From: Arenibacter arenosicollis
GTDB lineage: Bacteria; Bacteroidota; Bacteroidia; Flavobacteriales; Flavobacteriaceae
Assembly: GCF_014397245.1 (NCBI RefSeq)
Contig: NZ_JACLHY010000001.1
Span: 1 to 64,000, forward strand
Direction: 5' to 3'
DNA: 64,000 nucleotides
Shown: positions 1 through 9,674 of the stretch, in pieces
How the letters are laid out: each line of letters opens with the position of its first letter
Position numbering within the stretch: position 1 is the first letter of the stretch
Position numbers and translations under genes: made by a program
Notes under the pieces: model-generated
What the model was told of the DNA's origin: nothing
The model's input: the letters and a program-made list of their open reading frames with translations, nothing else
Databases searched by the model: none

Positions 1-592
1 TCATCCGTCTGATCAATGTGTGCTCTTCCGCTTTTTGGGAGGGCGTTAGATTGTTCTCCTCCATCTTTTCCAAGACAAAGGCATCGATCTCATTTTGGGT
101 CCAATCTGCCAGTTCCGTTTTTGGCAGCTCCGCTTTCTTGGGCGGGATAAAGGCCCAATGTTTTTCGAACTTGGCACCCTGTTCTATCCATTTTTTCAAC
201 AGTTTCTTTTCATAGGAATTCAGTGCCAATTGCGAATCCGGCGGGGGCATCAACTGCTTGGGGTCATCGGAAACCACGTGCTGGTACAAAAGACTATGGC
301 CAGGCTTTCCGGCCACAATGGCATATTTCCCGGGATTCTCCGGTAATTCGGAAAGTGCGGCTTTCTCCAGATCTAGCCGCAGGCCCGCTTTTCGCTTATT
401 GGCATCAGGGCCGTGACAGGTATAGCAATTATCAGAAAGTATAGGCTTTATATGGAAATTATAGTCCACGACCTCTGGCAGCTTCTGATCGGCGTACCCA
501 TCTCGGGAAGATTTGAAAAATCCCGATTTAAAGGCAAACAATAAAGCCACCAAGCCCAATAAAATAAATACTATGCCAACTTTTTGTTTCAT
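1..592 (-). CDS. PSCyt1/DUF1549-DUF1553 family protein, 5' part only
   Basis: Only the first 197 codons are in the window; the gene runs off the left edge. The ATG at 592 begins a short N-terminal membrane anchor (hydrophobic residues about 6-21), followed by a Planctomycete-type cytochrome c domain with one CxxCH haem-binding motif (CYTCH) and the downstream signature ending in WIEQGA and HWAF, which leads into a DUF1549 domain. It is clearly paralogous to the protein at 3683-6904: the block around the haem motif and the HWAF segment match closely. It lies 106 nt downstream of the DUF2231/haem/LRR gene on the same strand and probably belongs to the same operon. In this family the haem domain is thought to serve exported redox or polymer-degrading functions; the substrate is unknown. 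The family call is firm, the role is not. Confidence 0.85.
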   Translation of the reverse strand, partial: MKQKVGIVFILLGLVALLFAFKSGFFKSSRDGYADQKLPEVVDYNFHIKPILSDNCYTCHGPDANKRKAGLRLDLEKAALSELPENPGKYAIVAGKPGHSLLYQHVVSDDPKQLMPPPDSQLALNSYEKKLLKKWIEQGAKFEKHWAFIPPKKAELPKTELADWTQNEIDAFVLEKMEENNLTPSQKAEEHTLIRRM

Positions 593-698
593 TAGGGAAC
601 TAAATTTTCATTTGTTTAATTTTAAAGAGATAAAGTCCATACAGTTTCCTTTACCAAACCTCTAATATTCCATTGCCTATTCCTGACCAACTCCAATT

Positions 699-2093
699 TC
701 ACATTCCTAATATTATTGCAGGACTATTTCCATTTACCGCAAATCGATCTACCTCCTCCTGGGTTATGGCCGTTCCCCAGGCATACACGCGCTTTAATCT
801 CTTCATTTTGGCAAAGTTCTCCAAGCTCATTGCCGTTATTTTAGTTTGATATAAATTGAGTCCCGTAAGGCTCTGATTAGCCAATATTTCACCAATGCCA
901 GTATCGGTAATAGGATTTTTTTCAATCTCCAGTTTTTGAAGGTTTACAAATTTACTGATGGTTTTTAAATGCTTATCCTGGACTTTGTTGTTCTTTAAGG
1001 AAAGCCACATAATATTATCCTTAATAGGCAGAAGACTTTCCAGCTTCATATCCAATTCGCTACCATTCTTGGATGTAATTGATTGTGGGGGAAGAACAAT
1101 CTCATACAAACCGGATTCAAATATTAATTCCCGTATCTTAAATCCTGTGCTCTCTATATCCTTTAGCACCTCCGCACTTACAGCTTGCACTTTTGGCAAG
1201 GGTATTCCACTCTTACCTGTGGCATCTTCAAGTCCCAACATAGTGGAAGCTATACTTGTTATGTCCTCAGGGGTTTCCAAATTGGCCAGCTTCACCCTGA
1301 AATCGGCATTGCCCCTATCTATCCAAAAGGTCAAAATAGATTTCTCTTCATCGGTAAGAGGAGTCTTTCCTTCCGGTGGCATATAATCCTCATCATGTGG
1401 ATTCAACTTAACCCGCCTTATCATTTCGGACTTGGCTACATTCCCGGCTATAAAGACTTCTCCGTTTTTACCTCCCTTTTTTATGGCCATGGTATCCTGA
1501 AAGGAGAGCCCGCCCTTTTTCTTACTCGAATTATGGCAACTGGCACACTTGGCTTCAAGGATAGGGTTTACTAAATAATCATAAACAGCAGCTTCCTCCA
1601 ATTTGGCAATAGGTGGCAGTACTACCTTTTCCGTTCTCCCGAATGGGGCGTATTTTACCAAATAATCGCTTCCATGGGTTAAATTACCTCCATAATGACC
1701 GGTAACACTCACCAAAACCACTACTAAGGTCAGGGCAGCCATATTGGATTTTAGACCGTTTAATTTTTCTATATTAAGCCTGCCGGAACGTATGGCCCAA
1801 GCAAAAAAAGTGATTAAGGTTGTCGCTATTCCAAACCAAAAATGGGTATCCAACATGCTCTGGTCATAATCTCCACTCAAGGAAAGCATATATCCCAGTA
1901 TACTGGCCGCCAAGGCACTTATAGCGCCGCCGAACAAGGCCAAAGTAATTGCCATGGACAACGCAGGGTTTTTAATCCAACGCCCGTATAATTCCAAAAT
2001 AAACGCAAAGAACAAAAAACCAATAGGCAAATGCACCACTAGTGGATGAAATCGACCTAGAAACAATACAAAATCGGGCACACTACTATCCAT
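699..2093 (-). CDS. DUF2231 membrane protein with c-type haem domain and C-terminal LRRs
   Basis: A 464-residue protein. Four hydrophobic segments within residues 1-135 form a DUF2231-like membrane module (FHPLVVHLPIGF near the N terminus is typical). A Planctomycete-type cytochrome c domain follows, with CASCH (C183, C186, H187) and the MPPEGKTPL-type distal loop. The C-terminal 130 residues or so form short leucine-rich repeats of the kind seen in planctomycete proteins. Membrane-anchored with a periplasmic haem and an LRR docking surface is the natural reading. It starts 45 nt after the DUF1501 gene on the same strand, so co-transcription with the DUF1501 and DUF1549/DUF1553 genes is likely. 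The electron-transfer partner is not evident. A purely structural role cannot be excluded. Confidence 0.85.
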   Translation of the reverse strand: MDSSVPDFVLFLGRFHPLVVHLPIGFLFFAFILELYGRWIKNPALSMAITLALFGGAISALAASILGYMLSLSGDYDQSMLDTHFWFGIATTLITFFAWAIRSGRLNIEKLNGLKSNMAALTLVVVLVSVTGHYGGNLTHGSDYLVKYAPFGRTEKVVLPPIAKLEEAAVYDYLVNPILEAKCASCHNSSKKKGGLSFQDTMAIKKGGKNGEVFIAGNVAKSEMIRRVKLNPHDEDYMPPEGKTPLTDEEKSILTFWIDRGNADFRVKLANLETPEDITSIASTMLGLEDATGKSGIPLPKVQAVSAEVLKDIESTGFKIRELIFESGLYEIVLPPQSITSKNGSELDMKLESLLPIKDNIMWLSLKNNKVQDKHLKTISKFVNLQKLEIEKNPITDTGIGEILANQSLTGLNLYQTKITAMSLENFAKMKRLKRVYAWGTAITQEEVDRFAVNGNSPAIILGM

Positions 2094-2137
2094 TCCTAAC
2101 TTTTAAAACCAATTGTAACATATTTAATCTTTTTAAA

Positions 2138-3649
2138 TTAACTAAGAATGTCTTTCACTACATCTCCATGTACATCGGTAAGTCTAAAACGCCTACCCTG
2201 ATGTTTATAGGTCAATCTTTCATGGTCAATCCCAAAAAGATGCAATAAAGTAGCCTGAAAATCATGGGTATGTACTGGATCCTTGATAATATTGTAACCA
2301 AAATCATCTGTTTCACCATAGGAAAATCCAGGTTTCACCCCTGCCCCTGCCATGAACATGGTAAAAGCCTTAGGGTGGTGATCCCTTCCGTAGTTGGTGT
2401 CCGTTAACTGTCCCTGGGAATAGACCGTACGTCCAAATTCTCCGCCCCAAACCACCAAGGTATCTTCCAGCATTCCTCGCTGTTTAAGATCTTTGATCAA
2501 TGCGGCCGTCCCCTGATCTGTATTCTTGCTCTGATGTTTTACACCCCCTGGGCAATTGCCGTGTTGATCCCATCCCTGATGATATAATTGCACAAATTTC
2601 ACATCCTTTTCCAATAGTTTACGGGCCATTAAACAATTTGCCGCATAAGTTCCAGGATTTCGACTATCTGGCCCGTACATGTCAAAAATATAATCTGGTT
2701 CGTCAGAGGTATCGGTAACCTCGGGTACTGAAGTCTGCATCCTATAGGCCATTTCATATTGTGCTATCCGTGCATTTATTTCTGGATCCCCATAGGCATC
2801 ATAGGCTATTCCATTCAATTTTTTTAAATAGTCCAGCATCTGTCTACGATCATTACCGTCATAATTCTCCGGGTCTCCCAAATAAAGTACCGGGTCTTTT
2901 CCGGAACGGAACTGTACCCCTTGATGCTCTGTAGGTAAGAAACCATTGCCCCACAAACGGGAATACAAGGGTTGCCCCGAACCGTTTTTAGAGACTAAGG
3001 AAATAAAAGTCGGTAAATTATTATTATCGGACCCCAGCCCGTAACTGATCCAAGATCCTATGGACGGTCTACCCGGTAGTTGGCTCCCAGTTTGAAAAAA
3101 GGTAATAGCAGGATCGTGATTAATGGCATCGGTATGCATCCCCTTTATAAAACACAGATCATCTACTATCTCCGACAAATAAGGCATAGCATCACTGACC
3201 CATGCCCGGGATTCACCATATTGTTTAAAATTTAGGGTTGATGCTGCAATTGGGAAGGCGGTTTGATCCGCACTCATCCCCGTAAGACGTTGACCCGCTC
3301 TTATTGAATCAGGTAAATCCTGACCGAACATATCCTTGAGTTTGGGCTTATAATCGAACAAATCCAATTGTGAAGGACCACCGCTCTGAAAGAGGTACAC
3401 AATGCGCTTTGCCTTGGGCAAATGATGTGGTAATCCCAATTTATTTTTAGCGAAGGCATTTACGGAATTCTGTTGACCGGCGTAAGGATCAACAGCACTC
3501 CAAACCTTTTCTGTATTCAATAAAGAACCAAGCGCAATGGCACCAATCCCAAGGGAAGTTTTTTTAAAAAACTCCCTACGGTCCAATTGGCTTTCCAAAC
3601 TTTGAAGATCTCTGTTGTTAGATCTTAATTTATCATGATGATCGCACAT
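2138..3649 (-). CDS. DUF1501 family protein, Tat-exported
   Basis: A 503-residue protein of the DUF1501 family, which has an alkaline-phosphatase/sulfatase-like fold. The N terminus carries a twin-arginine signal (RREFFKK at residues 24-30 followed by a hydrophobic stretch), so it should be exported folded by the Tat system. Family features include QSGGPSQLDLFDYKP, the WDQHGN segment, WGGEFGRT and a C-terminal HHP and THDFQATLLHLFGID block; the histidines and aspartates are plausible metal ligands. In Planctomycetes and some Bacteroidota DUF1501 genes lie next to DUF1549/DUF1553 genes, as here: it starts 33 nt after the 3683-6904 gene. The true substrate of the family is not established, and a hydrolase role on sulfated or phosphorylated polymers is inference. 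Confidence 0.9.
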   Translation of the reverse strand: MCDHHDKLRSNNRDLQSLESQLDRREFFKKTSLGIGAIALGSLLNTEKVWSAVDPYAGQQNSVNAFAKNKLGLPHHLPKAKRIVYLFQSGGPSQLDLFDYKPKLKDMFGQDLPDSIRAGQRLTGMSADQTAFPIAASTLNFKQYGESRAWVSDAMPYLSEIVDDLCFIKGMHTDAINHDPAITFFQTGSQLPGRPSIGSWISYGLGSDNNNLPTFISLVSKNGSGQPLYSRLWGNGFLPTEHQGVQFRSGKDPVLYLGDPENYDGNDRRQMLDYLKKLNGIAYDAYGDPEINARIAQYEMAYRMQTSVPEVTDTSDEPDYIFDMYGPDSRNPGTYAANCLMARKLLEKDVKFVQLYHQGWDQHGNCPGGVKHQSKNTDQGTAALIKDLKQRGMLEDTLVVWGGEFGRTVYSQGQLTDTNYGRDHHPKAFTMFMAGAGVKPGFSYGETDDFGYNIIKDPVHTHDFQATLLHLFGIDHERLTYKHQGRRFRLTDVHGDVVKDILS

Positions 3650-3682
3650 AGTTTCCTTTTTAATTCTAGTTTTCCCAAAACA

Positions 3683-6600
3683 TTACCTTTTAGTGATACA
3701 TGGGTCTGCATTCATAATGGCATTGGCCACAACTGCATTTGCAGCCACCAAGGCTCTATCATCCCCACTATGCAATTTAAATTCACCCGTATTAAGCCAT
3801 CCTTTGGCTTTATCCATGTTGGCCGAGAATTTTTTGTATTCATTCTCCTGAAGTTCCACTAATAATTGCAGCTCATTTCCCTTGATTCTTCGCCCAGTCA
3901 GCTGTCTAAAAACATTGGAAATTGCCAATTTTATATCTTCGGTATCGCTCATGCGTTTGCCCAAAACCCTGGAAGCTTCAATATAAGTGGGATCGTTTAG
4001 CAATACCAAAGCCTGTAATGGGGTATTGGTTTCCTGTCGTCTAATAGTACACACATCACGTGCAGGAGCATCAAAAGTAGCCAGGGTAGGATGTGGCACC
4101 GAACGCTTCCAGATGGTATACATACTTCTTCTATAAAGTTTATCGCCCGTATCCTCCTTATAAGTAGCGTTGTTCACCCTCCATAATCCTTCTGGTTGAT
4201 AAGGACTTACACTTTCCCCTCCTATGGTTTTGTTTAGCAATCCTGAACTGGCCAAGGCATTATCGCGCAACATCTCTCCTGATAATCTTTTTGAAGGCCC
4301 TCTTGCCAAAAGTCTATTTTCAATGTCCATTTCCATCAATTCTTCACTCACCAATGATGATTGTTGATAGGTTTGAGACATAACTATTAATTTCTGCAAT
4401 GCCTTAACATCCCATCCCGAATCCCTAAACTCCAGAGCCAGCCAATCCAACAATTGAGGGTGACTCGGCATTTCACCCTGATTCCCAAAATCTTCAGAAG
4501 TCTTCACCAAGCCATTGCCAAAATAATGCTGCCAAAACCTGTTCACTGCCACTCGGGCGGTCAAAGGATGGTCCTTATGAAATAACCATTTGGCAAATCC
4601 CAATCGGTTTTTTGGATAGTCTTCAGGCATAGGCAATATAGCTTCTGGAGTATTCGGGAACACTTCTTCGCCCTTGGCGTTATAAACTCCTCGATCTAAT
4701 ATATAGGACGGTACAGGTTCAGGGGTCTCCTCCATGACCATTACCTCCTTTATTTTTTCCACACTATCCACATAACTCTTGCGCAATTCGGCCAATTTAC
4801 GCTCTTGCAATTTGGTTGCCTTGGAGACCAACTTCAAATAGTATTCTTGTAATAATTTTATATCACCGGACGCAAAACCACCTACCTCTCTTTTTATCAG
4901 ATCATTAAATTGAGGACTATCTGCGAGTTGCATTACCTCAAGGGCAGACAAATCCCTTTTATAAACCCGTATCTCATCGACCACGGCACCTTTTATTCCT
5001 TTTCCCCTTAATCTGGCGCCCAATTGTAGACCCGGCTCATTATTGTTTCTAAAAAGAATATCCTTGTATAAATTATCGGTTTTCACCAAGGTCTCCATCT
5101 CCTTGCCATTAACAAATAGTTTGTAACCGTCTGCTTTACTAGACCCATCATAGGTAATGGCAAAATGAACCCATTGATCCCTAGGAAATGCTTCTTTAGC
5201 AATTTCTATAATGGCATTGTTCGGGGCGGTATGTGCCATCATCAGTTCCAGCTTATTGTCCACAATCTTAAGATGATAACCTCGCCAATTGTACAAAATA
5301 GCACCATCGCCCTTATGAAATATATTCCCATTCTCAATATTCGAGGGTATATTGGCCCATAGACTTATACTGAAAGCATCATTACGCCCAAAAACACCGG
5401 CCTTTTTTAAATCCAACCACGTATCTCCATCCAACAGAACACCTTTGCCTTGTTTTCCGTCCGAAAGATGTATTTTTTGCCCTTCGGTGCCCTCCCGCTT
5501 CATAGTTCCCTTTTGATTTGGGTCGATGGTATTTTGTAAATTCTTATCATTGAGATCGAAGTAGGCCGTCAATCCGTTCGAAGGGACTTTCGATTCAATG
5601 GATTTATATTGTTTTTCGGATAACCATTTATCAAAATTTGCAGCTACCTCCTTTTGCTCTACTTTTTTAATCTCCCCTTCCGTCTCCTGAACAAGTTTAT
5701 GCATATAGGAAAGCACCTTTTCCTCCTCTTCGGTAGTCAACATCAAGGTGGGTACAGGTGTAGCATCATTCCAAGAAATTTGTCCCGACTCGTTTACATT
5801 GTTAAAAAAACTGGTGAGTTCATAAAAGTTCTTATGTGATATGGGATCATATTTATGATCATGACACCTAGCGCAGGCCACAGTAAGCCCCATAAAGGCC
5901 TGTCCTACTGTACTTGCCCTATCCACAGCATATTCCACCAAAAACTCTTCACTTACAATACCGCCCTCCATGTTTTGCGGATGAATACGGTTAAAAGCTG
6001 TGGCCAAGGTTGATTCCCGAGTAGGATTTTCAATAAGATCTCCCGCCAGTTGCCATGTTAAAAACTGCTCATAGGACATATTTTTATTAAAGGCATCTAT
6101 CACCCAATCCCGCCAAGGCGACATGTCCCGATAACGATCAACACTATAACCGTGGGTATCGGCAAAACGGGCCAAATCCATCCAATCCAAGGCCATTTGT
6201 TCGCCGTAGTGGGGAGAGTCCAACAATTTATCCACCACCTTTTCGTAGGCTTCGGGGGAGGAGTCCTTCATAAAAGCATCCATATCCTCCAAAGTTGGTG
6301 GTAATCCAGTTAAATCCAGATACAATCTTCTCAACAATAATTCCTTGTCCGCTTTGGGGGAGAATTGCAGTTTATCCTGCTCCAAGCGGGCCAGTACAAA
6401 ATTATCAATAGGGTTTTGTACCATGTCCTTGCCCTTAACTTTTGGTACATCGTATGCCTTTGGTTTAATAAAGGCCCAATGATCCTTGTATTCGGCACCT
6501 TGTTCTATCCATTTGATCAAAACTGCCTTCTCATGATTGGACAGGGAAAGGTGGGAATCCGGTTCCGGCATCACATAGTTAGGGTCTTCCGAGATAATTC

Positions 6601-6904
6601 TGTGAAACACCTCACTCTTATTTAGATTCCCAGGCTTTAATGCAAACTTGCCTGGTGACTCCTTTAATTCCTTAAAGGCTTTTTTAGGGGTATGCAACTG
6701 AAGATCAGCCTTTATTTTTGCCTTGTCCGGACCATGACATATGAAGCATTTATCAGAAAGAATAGGTTTTACATGCAGATTAAAATCGATCTGCTTTGGT
6801 AATTTATCATATTCCAGAGATACCAATTCCGGTAATTCGGGACCTCCACAAGATAAAACCAATAAAAACCAAGCATAAACTAAAATATTCTTAATAATTG
6901 CCAT
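3683..6904 (-). CDS. PSCyt1-DUF1549-LamG-DUF1553 lipoprotein
   Basis: A 1073-residue protein and probably the first gene of the cassette. The signal peptide ends in a lipobox (VLSC, Cys19). Domain order: PSCyt1 haem domain about 40-150 (CFICH, C53/C56/H57); DUF1549 about 160-370, containing a second CxxCH (CARCH, C344/C347/H348) in its conserved CARCHDHKYDPI motif; a LamG/concanavalin-like insertion about 440-660; and DUF1553 about 770-1040 with the RVAVNRFWQHYFG signature. LamG domains often bind carbohydrate, so a surface or periplasmic carbohydrate-linked redox role is reasonable but unproven. Two potential haems make it a diheme candidate. A TAnnTTTG-type -7 box sits 28 nt before the ATG. 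The AraC gene diverges from it across 213 nt. Confidence 0.9.
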   Translation of the reverse strand: MAIIKNILVYAWFLLVLSCGGPELPELVSLEYDKLPKQIDFNLHVKPILSDKCFICHGPDKAKIKADLQLHTPKKAFKELKESPGKFALKPGNLNKSEVFHRIISEDPNYVMPEPDSHLSLSNHEKAVLIKWIEQGAEYKDHWAFIKPKAYDVPKVKGKDMVQNPIDNFVLARLEQDKLQFSPKADKELLLRRLYLDLTGLPPTLEDMDAFMKDSSPEAYEKVVDKLLDSPHYGEQMALDWMDLARFADTHGYSVDRYRDMSPWRDWVIDAFNKNMSYEQFLTWQLAGDLIENPTRESTLATAFNRIHPQNMEGGIVSEEFLVEYAVDRASTVGQAFMGLTVACARCHDHKYDPISHKNFYELTSFFNNVNESGQISWNDATPVPTLMLTTEEEEKVLSYMHKLVQETEGEIKKVEQKEVAANFDKWLSEKQYKSIESKVPSNGLTAYFDLNDKNLQNTIDPNQKGTMKREGTEGQKIHLSDGKQGKGVLLDGDTWLDLKKAGVFGRNDAFSISLWANIPSNIENGNIFHKGDGAILYNWRGYHLKIVDNKLELMMAHTAPNNAIIEIAKEAFPRDQWVHFAITYDGSSKADGYKLFVNGKEMETLVKTDNLYKDILFRNNNEPGLQLGARLRGKGIKGAVVDEIRVYKRDLSALEVMQLADSPQFNDLIKREVGGFASGDIKLLQEYYLKLVSKATKLQERKLAELRKSYVDSVEKIKEVMVMEETPEPVPSYILDRGVYNAKGEEVFPNTPEAILPMPEDYPKNRLGFAKWLFHKDHPLTARVAVNRFWQHYFGNGLVKTSEDFGNQGEMPSHPQLLDWLALEFRDSGWDVKALQKLIVMSQTYQQSSLVSEELMEMDIENRLLARGPSKRLSGEMLRDNALASSGLLNKTIGGESVSPYQPEGLWRVNNATYKEDTGDKLYRRSMYTIWKRSVPHPTLATFDAPARDVCTIRRQETNTPLQALVLLNDPTYIEASRVLGKRMSDTEDIKLAISNVFRQLTGRRIKGNELQLLVELQENEYKKFSANMDKAKGWLNTGEFKLHSGDDRALVAANAVVANAIMNADPCITKR

Positions 6905-6931
6905 ATACCATCATACTATTTAGCACTTTTT

Positions 6932-6939
6932 CAAAGATA
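6932..6939 (-). promoter_or_regulatory. Putative -7 box (TATCTTTG) for the PSCyt/DUF1501 cassette
   Basis: On the minus strand the sequence reads TATCTTTG, an exact match to the Bacteroidota TAnnTTTG -7 element, ending 28 nt before the ATG at 6904. No good -33 TTTG is found at the usual spacing; the nearest lies 26 nt upstream. The rest of the 213-nt intergenic region is AT-rich and holds two copies of CCAAATC (near 6965 and 7095) that could be regulator half-sites. Confidence 0.45.
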
Positions 6940-7117
6940 AAATTTAAGGATTCATAATTCCCGTCCAAATCAGTTTAAGTATTGTACATTTCCGACATTG
7001 TCATTTTATAGATAGATAATATTTCCTAACTTTTACACTAAATTAGTACCTTGAATCTATATTTATAATGAATAATTAAATTATAAACATTACTCCAAAT
7101 CCGACAAAAAATTAATT

Positions 7118-7987
7118 ATGTCTAAAATACTTCAATCTTTAAAATTGGACTTATTAAACGTAGGGTATGCAAAATTGGACCCTCTATGGGACTATGATGA
7201 TGTCATTAGTCCGTTTCTCCGACTTTATTACATCACTACGGGAAGTGCCATGGTTTATCACAGTAATGAAGCCATAGAATTGAAGTCGGGACATATATAC
7301 CTTATTCCCAGTTATACCTTTGGCAGGTATAAATGCGATGACTACCACGAGCAATATTATATCAGCTGTTTGGAGGAGATAAAAAATGGTTATTCCATTT
7401 TTAATTTTAGCAGCTTTATTTACGAGTCAAAGGCCAACCCCATGGATCTGTATTACTTTAAGCGTCTTTTGGAGTTAAATCCCAATCGGCAGTTGACAAA
7501 CAACAATCCAAAAGTGTATGACAATAGGCCCACGTTGATGGATTTTAAAAAGAAGAACGAAGAATTAGGGCTTTCCGCATATATGGAAACCCATGGTATT
7601 TTGAAGATTCTTCTTTCCAGATTTATTAAGGATGCCCATTCGCAATCCCCAAAAAGTAATGTAAAAAAGGAATTTGGCATGGTCTTAAACCACATTCACG
7701 AAAATCTGCACGAACCATTAACGGTGAAACATTTGGCCGAGTTTTGTCATTTAAACACCGATTATTTTTCTAGGGTTTTCAATGAAAATTTTGGTATGCG
7801 TCCCAATAAATACATTCAATCCAAACGTATTGAAAGGGCACAGTTACTCCTACTTTCAACAAATAATTCCCTGAAGCAAATTGCAGAAAGGGTAGGATTG
7901 GAGAATCCGTCCTATTTTACAAGAATATTTAAGAATCATACTGGGAAAACTCCAGGAAGTTTCCGGGAGGAACAGTTAAAGAAATAA
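7118..7987 (+). CDS. AraC-family transcriptional regulator
   Basis: A 289-residue cytoplasmic regulator. The N-terminal half (about 20-160) looks like an AraC-type cupin ligand-binding domain, containing GHIYLIPSYTFGRYKC. The C-terminal 100 residues form the two helix-turn-helix AraC/XylS DNA-binding domain: LTVKHLAEFCHLNTDYFSR is the first helix-turn-helix, and LLLLSTNNSLKQIAERVGLENPSYFTRIFK with the GKTPGSFR end is the second. It is divergent from the haem/DUF1501 cassette, the usual arrangement for a local regulator, so control of that cassette is the best guess. The inducer is not identifiable. A weak TAccTTGa sequence around 7047-7054 may be its -7 box. Confidence 0.92.
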   Translation: MSKILQSLKLDLLNVGYAKLDPLWDYDDVISPFLRLYYITTGSAMVYHSNEAIELKSGHIYLIPSYTFGRYKCDDYHEQYYISCLEEIKNGYSIFNFSSFIYESKANPMDLYYFKRLLELNPNRQLTNNNPKVYDNRPTLMDFKKKNEELGLSAYMETHGILKILLSRFIKDAHSQSPKSNVKKEFGMVLNHIHENLHEPLTVKHLAEFCHLNTDYFSRVFNENFGMRPNKYIQSKRIERAQLLLLSTNNSLKQIAERVGLENPSYFTRIFKNHTGKTPGSFREEQLKK

Positions 7988-8057: not shown

Positions 8058-8609
8058 CTATCCCTTGGTAAAAACCAGATCAAAATCGATAGTGACATTA
8101 TCACCTACTATAATCTGGCCAAACATTGCCGTTGGCGGTTCCATATTAAAATCTTGCAACTTTATTTCCTTGTTGCCCTTAAAAACATACTTCCCACCTA
8201 CTTCTTGGAATTCAGATGTAATATCCACTTCTTTTTCAGTTCCAGCAATATTGAGCAAGCCCATAATATGAAAAGAATTTTCCGAGCCAGTGTCCTTCTT
8301 TATTTCTTGAAATTTAAAAGTTACCTCCGGATGCTCTTCCTTCTTTAGAGCGGCATGCATTTTCTTGTCCATAGCCGCACCACGTTCACTTTTTATTTGC
8401 TCCACCTCTACTTGAAACAGCAAATTTTTAAGTACCCCTGCATCCATTTTCATAGACCCCTTCATTGAATTGGCTGTTACTGTCCAATCATGAATTGTGG
8501 AACTACCATTAATTTTTAGGACACTTTCCTTGGCCAAGGTGTATGTTTCTTGTGAATAGCCCACAAAAACGAGGAATAAAATTGCTATAAAGGACAGTCT
8601 ATTTTTCAT
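8058..8609 (-). CDS. YceI family periplasmic protein
   Basis: A 183-residue protein with a clear signal peptide (MKNRLSFIAILFLVFVGYSQ). The body is a YceI lipocalin-like beta barrel that in this family binds isoprenoid or other long lipids: INGSSTIHDWTVTA near the start, HPEVTFKF in the middle, and a C-terminal FDLVF strand. It starts 49 nt after the GldK-like lipoprotein gene and both are on the minus strand, so they probably form an operon. Nothing identifies its ligand. Family membership is secure; a role tied to the neighbouring lipoprotein is inference from adjacency only. Confidence 0.88.
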   Translation of the reverse strand: MKNRLSFIAILFLVFVGYSQETYTLAKESVLKINGSSTIHDWTVTANSMKGSMKMDAGVLKNLLFQVEVEQIKSERGAAMDKKMHAALKKEEHPEVTFKFQEIKKDTGSENSFHIMGLLNIAGTEKEVDITSEFQEVGGKYVFKGNKEIKLQDFNMEPPTAMFGQIIVGDNVTIDFDLVFTKG

Positions 8610-8657
8610 CTGTTATATTTGTTATTCTAATTAGTAAGTGTTTTTATTAGGCTCTAC

Positions 8658-9674
8658 CTACTCATCCAATACGGTCTGCCAAAACTGTTTTTGTTCCTCT
8701 TTTGAAGGTTGCACTTTTGGACTCACCAATCTAAATCCAATAAAGTTGGAATCGGTGTTCCACCAAAAGCTTTTTGGAATCTGTGGATCCCTCTTTTGCA
8801 ATTTTAAGCTGGAGGCGATTCTTGCTGAAGACCTCAGTGTCTTTGCGTCATCATCCCATGACCCACCTTTTATCACTCGGGGATGAATTACCGTTGGTTT
8901 TACCCAAGGGTTCTTGGATTCGGTAATGGCAAAGGCATTTTCCTTATACTCATCCAATGTCCACTCGGAGACATTCCCGTGCATATCATAAAGTCCCCAA
9001 GGATTGGGCAATTTACTACCGACCTTGGCATACTGATTATTGGAGTTTTTATAATAAACAGCATATTCGTCCAATTTTGTTACATCATCACCGAAAGAAT
9101 ATGCGGTATTGGTTCCTGCCTTGGCGGCATATTCCCATTCCGCTTCTGTTGGCAATCTATAAAACCTGCCAGTAACGGTACTTAACCACTTACAGAATAC
9201 TAAAGCGGAATAAGCGGACATACTTATTGCCGGATACCCATCCTTTCCCATACCATAGGACGGATCCTCATAAGGAGGACTAGGCCTCGTAATGGCATCT
9301 ATATTATTTAACTTATCGGCGTCCAAAGTCTGGAACAATTCTTTGTTTTGTTTAAAGAACAACTCAAAAACCTCCCAGCCAAGTTCATATTTGCCCATAT
9401 AAAAGGCGTCCAATTCAACATCCTTCATAGGGCCTTCGTCGGCCTTTCTATTGACCTGGTTCTCTGGACTTCCCATCGTAAATTTTCCTTCGGGAATCAG
9501 CACCATTTCAAATGAAATATCCGTAGCCGGAATATTTTCTGTAAATACTTCTGCAGTATGTGTTTTTTTATCGGGCCCAGCCGTAACCGACTTTCCTGAT
9601 TTACAGGATCCCAAGGAAATTAACAATAAGGTAATTAAGAGAAAATTAAATACTCTGGAGATAATTCTAAGCAT
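8658..9674 (-). CDS. GldK-like SUMF1-fold lipoprotein (not a true formylglycine-generating enzyme)
   Basis: A 338-residue lipoprotein (lipobox LGSC, Cys24) with one sulfatase-modifying-factor fold: FTMGSPENQVNRKADEGP at the start, RLPTEAEWEYAAKAG, GLYDMHGNVSEW and a terminal FIGFRLV. Genuine formylglycine-generating enzymes have catalytic cysteines near the C-terminal GGS motif; here that segment reads KGGSWDDDAKTLRSSARIA with no cysteine, so it should not activate sulfatases. It shares its fold with GldK at 27695-29053 but is shorter and diverged. First gene of a probable two-gene operon with the YceI gene. A structural or binding role in the outer membrane is more likely than an enzymatic one. 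Confidence 0.85.
   Translation of the reverse strand: MLRIISRVFNFLLITLLLISLGSCKSGKSVTAGPDKKTHTAEVFTENIPATDISFEMVLIPEGKFTMGSPENQVNRKADEGPMKDVELDAFYMGKYELGWEVFELFFKQNKELFQTLDADKLNNIDAITRPSPPYEDPSYGMGKDGYPAISMSAYSALVFCKWLSTVTGRFYRLPTEAEWEYAAKAGTNTAYSFGDDVTKLDEYAVYYKNSNNQYAKVGSKLPNPWGLYDMHGNVSEWTLDEYKENAFAITESKNPWVKPTVIHPRVIKGGSWDDDAKTLRSSARIASSLKLQKRDPQIPKSFWWNTDSNFIGFRLVSPKVQPSKEEQKQFWQTVLDE

Follow-up and report, generated by a model that had tools for sequence, protein, structure and literature searches.

A haem protein-DUF1501 cassette with a neighbouring AraC regulator and a candidate operator in Arenibacter arenosicollis

Introduction

The PSCyt1, PSCyt2 (DUF1549) and PSD1 (DUF1553) domain families are reportedly those described from Rhodopirellula baltica in the original 2004 domain paper on that bacterium. 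Members of the PSCyt/PSD family in Verrucomicrobia metagenome-assembled genomes carry carbohydrate-binding inserts, are accompanied by a conserved neighbouring gene and are of unknown function (PMC5615132); a frequent sulfatase neighbourhood is recorded in the same and a second paper (PMC5615132, PMC2754498). Here we analyse a cassette of this kind in Arenibacter arenosicollis, located at the start of the window, the 64,000-nucleotide stretch C1:1-64000 of a 5.4 Mb genome in 77 contigs. Four minus-strand genes, designated A to D in order of increasing coordinate, are followed by the divergent gene of an AraC-family regulator. In its domains, their order, the carbohydrate-binding insert and the neighbouring gene, the cassette resembles the Planctomycete and Verrucomicrobia PSCyt1/PSCyt2-PSD1 genes (PMC5615132). 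The flavobacterial version differs in its divergent AraC gene and associated site, its DUF2231-cytochrome-LRR partner and, in 18 of 28 orthologous loci, a propeller protein exported by the twin-arginine translocation (Tat) pathway. The PSCyt/PSD family is already known, although uncharacterised, and no functional study of DUF1501, DUF1549 or DUF1553 was found in the open-access literature (subscription journals and preprints lay outside the search), in keeping with a first-pass annotation of this DNA that had described the set as having no agreed biochemistry. What is new is the regulator, the site, the membrane partner and the fucose neighbourhood.

Results

A conserved cassette with a candidate operator

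Orthologous loci were defined as all gene D matches of at least 56% identity (28 loci in 26 genomes; the next match has 49%), and their neighbours were labelled by local profiles. The DUF1501 gene lies beside gene D in 27 of these loci, an AraC orthologue is present in 20 (directly adjacent in 18, with a gene between in two), a propeller gene in 18 and a B-type gene in 15; the window itself has no propeller gene. The first-pass annotation had read the genes as a coordinated redox system that is exported and has an AraC regulator of its own, naming linkage of the genes in relatives as a test. The linkage of D and C, the frequent AraC neighbour and an operator-like site between AraC and D support the proposal, while B accompanies D in little more than half of the loci. 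The genes of the window cassette are separated by gaps of 33, 44 and 106 bp. In the tree, gene D pairs with the copy at locus L132 (82% identical, support 100/100), which is flanked by a GH95 gene, an NPCBM/melibiase-like gene and a large AraC-HTH protein, and AraC-linked copies occur in every main branch.

The intergenic regions adjoining AraC share nine-base words that recur in up to 11 of 18 loci, against at most four in shuffles. A 13-base half-site, allowing two mismatches or fewer, occurs in 14 of 19 AraC-adjacent intergenic regions compared with two of 1,150 shuffled sequences; it also occurs in L020, L021 and L022, which are named loci and may overlap with other genomes sampled. The half-site is present in one of ten upstream regions that lack a directly adjacent AraC, and in none of nine upstream of the other haem genes of the same genome. 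As the half-site was first counted in the regions from which it had been derived, a genome-wide scan provides the more independent test. Across 27 genomes, all 14 matches to the 29-bp site TCGGAAATGTACA-N9-CTGATTT with at most two mismatches are positioned just upstream of gene D, and the window contains a single, exact copy. With three mismatches there were 19 further matches, two of them lying upstream of gene D; as the reversed control pattern yielded eight at three or fewer, these weaker sites are mostly noise. At L156 the half-site is not found within two mismatches, yet the genome scan detects the site. These data are good evidence, at the level of sequence, for a dedicated local regulator with a candidate operator; the conserved adjacency and the conserved site in the promoter region indicate that AraC belongs with the operon, which is probably switched by this neighbouring protein. 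A Pfam search returned no match for the N-terminal half of the regulator.

The exported proteins

Gene D exceeds the Pfam cut-offs, in order, for PSCyt1 (48.2 bits; cut-off 22), PSCyt2 (284.2; 29.8) and PSD1 (343.7; 28.5), and the LamG-type insertion claimed for the large protein was recovered by Pfam as Laminin_G_3. Its start has a lipobox-like sequence, as do 25 of 28 orthologues, and the predicted model has a predicted local distance difference test (pLDDT) score of 93.8. For the first haem, C53, C56, H57 and M112 are conserved without exception in the 81-82 of 86 rows that have a residue at these positions, and the CxxCH motif with its conserved Met makes the PSCyt1 domain a predicted class I c-type cytochrome. 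All 86 rows share the second motif, in PSCyt2, as C344-C347-H348-x-H350, and no Met residue of the window protein is conserved at 85% apart from M112 and the start. A CCP_MauG-type profile was not among the Pfam or NCBIfam hits of gene D at E ≤ 0.001. The five proteins of the cassette contain exactly four CxxCH motifs (one in A, one in B and two in D), where composition predicts 0.003, consistent with the earlier count of at least four.

The product of gene C, previously predicted to be a Tat-exported DUF1501 protein, matches PF07394 over positions 1-390 of 390 (518.5 bits; cut-off 27), and its twin-arginine pair at residues 24-25 is invariant in 67 of 67 rows. The predicted model (pLDDT 85.7) adopts the alkaline-phosphatase-superfamily fold, which DUF1501 shares with S1 sulfatases and nucleotide phosphodiesterases. 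The Pfam Sulfatase match, however, is below its cut-off (19.4 versus 25 bits), and the active site is altered. H178, D361, H363, E404, F405 and H424 are invariant in 67 of 67 rows, and R407 is likewise invariant; according to HMMER and hhalign alignments Glu404-Phe405 replace the Asp-Asn/His metal pair of S1 sulfatases. In addition, H178-D-P180-A stands at the C/S-x-P-x-R formylglycine motif when placed by spacing to the conserved T-G, a region outside hhalign coverage, so that by our reading of the motif spacing the invariant His178 would occupy the position of the sulfatase nucleophile. Judged from these residues DUF1501 is not a standard sulfatase, and its invariant residues could form a new metal site.

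Gene B corresponds to the DUF2231-haem-LRR protein of the first-pass annotation: DUF2231 and PSCyt1 were identified by Pfam, with LRR matches under cut-off. Five histidines of the DUF2231 domain (16, 21, 84, 133 and 140) are invariant in 35 of 35 rows, as are C183, C186, H187 and M238, the CxxCH and Met-Pro residues of the cytochrome, which therefore also fits a class I c-type protein with a predicted haem and a conserved Met ligand. In di-haem b membrane cytochromes four axial histidines bind two b haems, and the DUF2231 domain is a candidate for this class. DUF2231 is fused to PSCyt1-PSCyt2-PSD1 in two other copies in the same genome (C34, L016 12697-15531, by Pfam; C25, L017 8979-11819, by alignment), and these fusions support physical association between B and the haem protein.

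Table 1. Positions of the cassette genes, the LamG insertion and the operator-like site in the window
Feature	Position	Strand	Basis
Gene A (5' part only, off contig end): PSCyt1 (CYTCH) and the start of PSCyt2 (30 of 209 positions)	2..592	-	Pfam
Gene B: DUF2231 membrane domain, PSCyt1 cytochrome (CASCH, Met238), LRR	699..2093	-	Pfam, alignment
Gene C: DUF1501, twin-arginine signal, alkaline-phosphatase-superfamily fold with altered active site	2138..3649	-	Pfam, alignment, fold
Gene D: putative lipoprotein PSCyt1-PSCyt2-LamG-PSD1, haem c motifs CFICH 53 and CARCH 344	3683..6904	-	Pfam, alignment
LamG insertion (Laminin_G_3, residues 492-657) separating PSCyt2 and PSD1 in gene D	4934..5431	-	Pfam; coordinates from residue range
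Operator-like site TCGGAAATGTACA-N9-CTGATTT between AraC and D	6967..6995	-	Word search, genome scan
Divergent AraC-family regulator, C-terminal HTH_18	7118..7987	+	Pfam; orthologue in 20 of 28 loci

Beside AraC, window 8058-9674 encodes a YceI protein and a lipoprotein-like gene with an FGE-sulfatase domain, which in relatives apparently lie outside the operon.

Sugar genes near the orthologous loci

The first-pass annotation suggested that the system acts on a polymer. Genomic and domain context favours action on a carbohydrate, through LamG, a CBM6 domain in the corresponding insertion of another copy, and the fucose genes and sulfatases near the cassette in relatives. A FucP-like permease is found near gene D in eight of 28 loci, L-fucose dehydrogenase is among the conserved neighbours in seven, and an L-fuconolactonase-like amidohydrolase in six; two representatives of each were scanned against NCBIfam, the permeases and dehydrogenases exceeding their cut-offs and the amidohydrolases, at 269 and 271, falling short of theirs (400). 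The L-fucose dehydrogenase gene is close to single-copy (29 places in 25 of 27 genomes); in nine of 28 loci it is no more than 20 kb away from gene D, where 0.3 are expected. Sulfatases are near D in 11 of 28 loci; 6.2 are expected when every candidate is counted (P = 0.026) and 4.9 (P = 0.004) with counts for which scoring ended at 59 candidates in ten of 26 genomes. These expectations ignore relatedness and clustering, and two of the nine fucose-linked genomes (G182 and G616) belong to the same genus.

The 3-keto-glycoside pathway combines Gfo/Idh/MocA glycoside 3-dehydrogenases with 3-keto-disaccharide hydrolases. A Tat-exported Gfo/Idh/MocA enzyme is encoded near nine of 28 loci, and the one representative scanned has glycoside 3-dehydrogenase BT_2158 as its best NCBIfam match, at 155.9 bits far under the cut-off of 750. 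A 3-keto-disaccharide hydrolase is encoded near another cassette of the same genome (L010), but the operon in the window has neither enzyme. In six of 28 loci (L148, L152, L153, L156, L157 and L158; L148 was the scanned representative) the gene immediately after B is of the CCP_MauG/MbnH-like di-haem kind.

Copies in the genome and distribution

The genome has 14 DUF1501 places (13 over cut-off), 13 PSCyt2 places (12 over cut-off) and ten DUF2231 places, giving eleven complete PSCyt2-DUF1501 pairs, the window cassette among them. The insert between PSCyt2 and PSD1 varies: two scanned copies have LamG, one has CBM6, and in others none was recognised. The adjacent regulators differ as well: AraC in the window, a LytTR/histidine-kinase pair on C22 and a divergent gene without an assigned family on C32. 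Whole haem/DUF1501/DUF2231 cassettes on C11 (18852-24497) and C34 (L015 4868-10513, L016 5552-11197) are 96% identical over 5.6 kb, and a tandem pair on C27 is 90% identical over 4.35 kb; by their sequences these are recent duplications. Another type of haem cassette is accompanied by a divergent gene, about 400 residues long and without a significant Pfam family, that is perhaps an unnamed regulator (L010 11727-12977, L025 8689-9882, L027 8659-9900), and at L018 5053-8288 a DUF1501 gene follows a 502-residue gene without CxxCH, a cassette type without haem genes. G593, the one other sampled genome of the genus, has a shorter haem gene (786-residue frame) and no full-length LamG-type match at E ≤ 1e-100.

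The statement that the set is known mostly from Planctomycetes is outdated. PSCyt2 is present in 49 of 395 sampled Bacteroidota genomes, and of 249 sampled genomes from the family to which the window belongs, 64 have matches resembling gene D (E ≤ 1e-100). From a scan of named genomes, in which groups were assigned from record titles, 583 stretches were confirmed and the best 80 (79 loci) evaluated. These span Bacteroidota, Rhodothermota, Verrucomicrobiota, Planctomycetota, Acidobacteriota and others, and a Planctomycete-specific cassette was rejected on the basis of this occurrence. Within this set the nearest named orthologues are from Maribacter, Flavivirga and Aquimarina (57-59% identity), making the assignment to a 'flavobacterium' plausible at family level. 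Among loci with at least 500 bp of room (L072 has no usable frame), the haem gene has DUF1501 as its neighbour in 17 of 19 from Bacteroidota/Rhodothermota and in 41 of 51 others. Where 5 kb of room is available, the DUF2231-cytochrome-LRR gene is near D in seven of 17 Bacteroidota/Rhodothermota loci, compared with one of 33 others.

Gene A and the left contig end

The window starts at position 1 of contig C1, and its left edge is thus a contig end. Pfam confirmed D, C, B and AraC among the four minus-strand genes and regulator first described, and A is truncated. Of the two DUF1549/DUF1553 proteins claimed, D qualifies; the PSCyt1 domain of A is above cut-off (60.5 bits, 2.4e-16), but its PSCyt2 match (24 bits over 30 of 209 positions, at the contig end) is below the cut-off of 29.8 and the visible part has no PSD1. 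A second near-identical copy of A exists: the first 392 bases of C33 are 95% identical to window 235-625. The right end of C33 carries the C-terminal part of such a gene (a PSCyt2 tail), whose final 213 bp share 96.7% identity with the left end of C48. The simplest interpretation of these overlaps is a probable contig order C48 (reversed)-C33-C1, with the two near-identical copies of A as the likely cause of the contig ends.

The cassette was suggested to continue leftwards, perhaps with another DUF1501 gene. This holds for one copy and probably not for A, because the PSCyt2 tail in C48 precedes DUF1501 (followed by a DUF2231-type PSCyt1/LRR gene and ApbE), while the gene next to A in C33 would not be DUF1501; on the basis of the proposed contig order, an arrangement in which the window's own gene A is followed by DUF1501 was rejected. 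C33 encodes SusC/SusD, two GH92 enzymes, GDE_C and a ROK protein, and gene A would lie at the end of a mannose-type glycan locus if this contig order is right. No SusD place was found in C1:1-64000, and a typical SusCD polysaccharide utilization locus within the window was therefore rejected.

Discussion

We tentatively propose, as the best-supported reading, that the cassette is a locally regulated, inducible respiratory oxidation module for an exported carbohydrate or glycan. AraC would sense a sugar, of the fucose type in several relatives, bind the 29-bp site and switch on D-C-B. The lipoprotein D would hold the glycan through LamG, and electrons would pass from a sugar residue through the second haem of D, in PSCyt2, to the His/Met haem of PSCyt1, then via the His/Met cytochrome of B and its histidine-rich membrane domain to the quinone pool or an oxidase. 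DUF1501, which would already be folded when Tat exports it, may be the metal-dependent partner, with a role in preparing or processing the substrate, and the oxidized product would be finished by neighbours that vary between species: the exported Gfo/Idh/MocA enzyme, L-fucose dehydrogenase, the fuconolactonase-like enzyme and sulfatases.

Several observations weigh against this proposal. No dedicated dehydrogenase fold was recognized in the operon. The fucose link is absent from the genome itself, where L-fucose dehydrogenase and FucP are on C23, and from the closest orthologues (L132-L136). Within 10 kb of PSCyt2 the genome has five of 48 sulfatases (1.7 expected, P = 0.027), a weak enrichment, and two of 32 SusD places (1.1 expected, P = 0.31); these counts used 48 of 52 sulfatase and 32 of 33 SusD rows, split pieces, DUF1501 itself and weak fragments having been dropped. 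Furthermore, 13 of 28 loci have no B, eight lack an AraC orthologue, and five of 19 AraC-adjacent regions are without the half-site within two mismatches.

Three other explanations were considered. The fold of DUF1501 would suit a hydrolytic module, in which a variant esterase/sulfatase or phosphodiesterase acts on a decorated glycan while the cytochromes only sense or poise redox state; this is unlikely given the replacement of the sulfatase metal pair by the invariant Glu404-Phe405 and the invariant His178 at the formylglycine Cys position, the latter placed by our reading of motif spacing outside the tool alignment. The two haems of D invite a different comparison. The cytochrome c peroxidase/MauG group pairs a high-spin haem with a low-spin relay, and PSCyt1-PSCyt2-PSD1 could be a di-haem enzyme of this sort that uses peroxide on a glycan or protein. 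Like cytochrome c peroxidase, MauG and MbnH, D has two predicted c haems, one with a conserved His/Met pair and one without a conserved Met, and a gene of that group is the immediate neighbour of B in the six loci listed above. The lack of a family match for D itself in Pfam or NCBIfam makes this account improbable; PSCyt2-PSD1 matched no solved structure by sequence, and the fold search in this region was swamped by LamG.

The haem proteins and the membrane cytochrome could serve extracellular electron transfer or general electron storage, with the sugar genes as chance neighbours, and the weak enrichment near such genes in the genome itself fits that view. Against it are the carbohydrate-binding inserts, the dedicated AraC and the excess of fucose dehydrogenase linkage (nine loci against 0.3), which together render it very unlikely.

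Beyond the locally regulated oxidation module proposed here, it is conceivable, though doubtful, that such cassettes represent an unrecognized mode of glycan breakdown or activation, in which a surface or periplasmic respiratory complex of a di-haem PSCyt2-PSD1 protein and a redox-coupled DUF1501 oxidizes sugar residues and passes electrons into respiration through the DUF2231 membrane cytochrome. DUF1501 would then have a rebuilt metal site, with His for the sulfatase nucleophile and Glu-Phe for Asp-Asn. If true, the many copies per species, each with its own lectin insert and regulator, would parallel glycoside hydrolases. The rebuilt active site of DUF1501 is a warning against annotating such proteins as sulfatases. 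With one operon, one regulator, a candidate operator and, in relatives, an L-fucose pathway beside it, the function becomes testable, and the fucose-linked operon of some relatives, fucose being an algal sugar, may offer a concrete route to the function of a widespread family.

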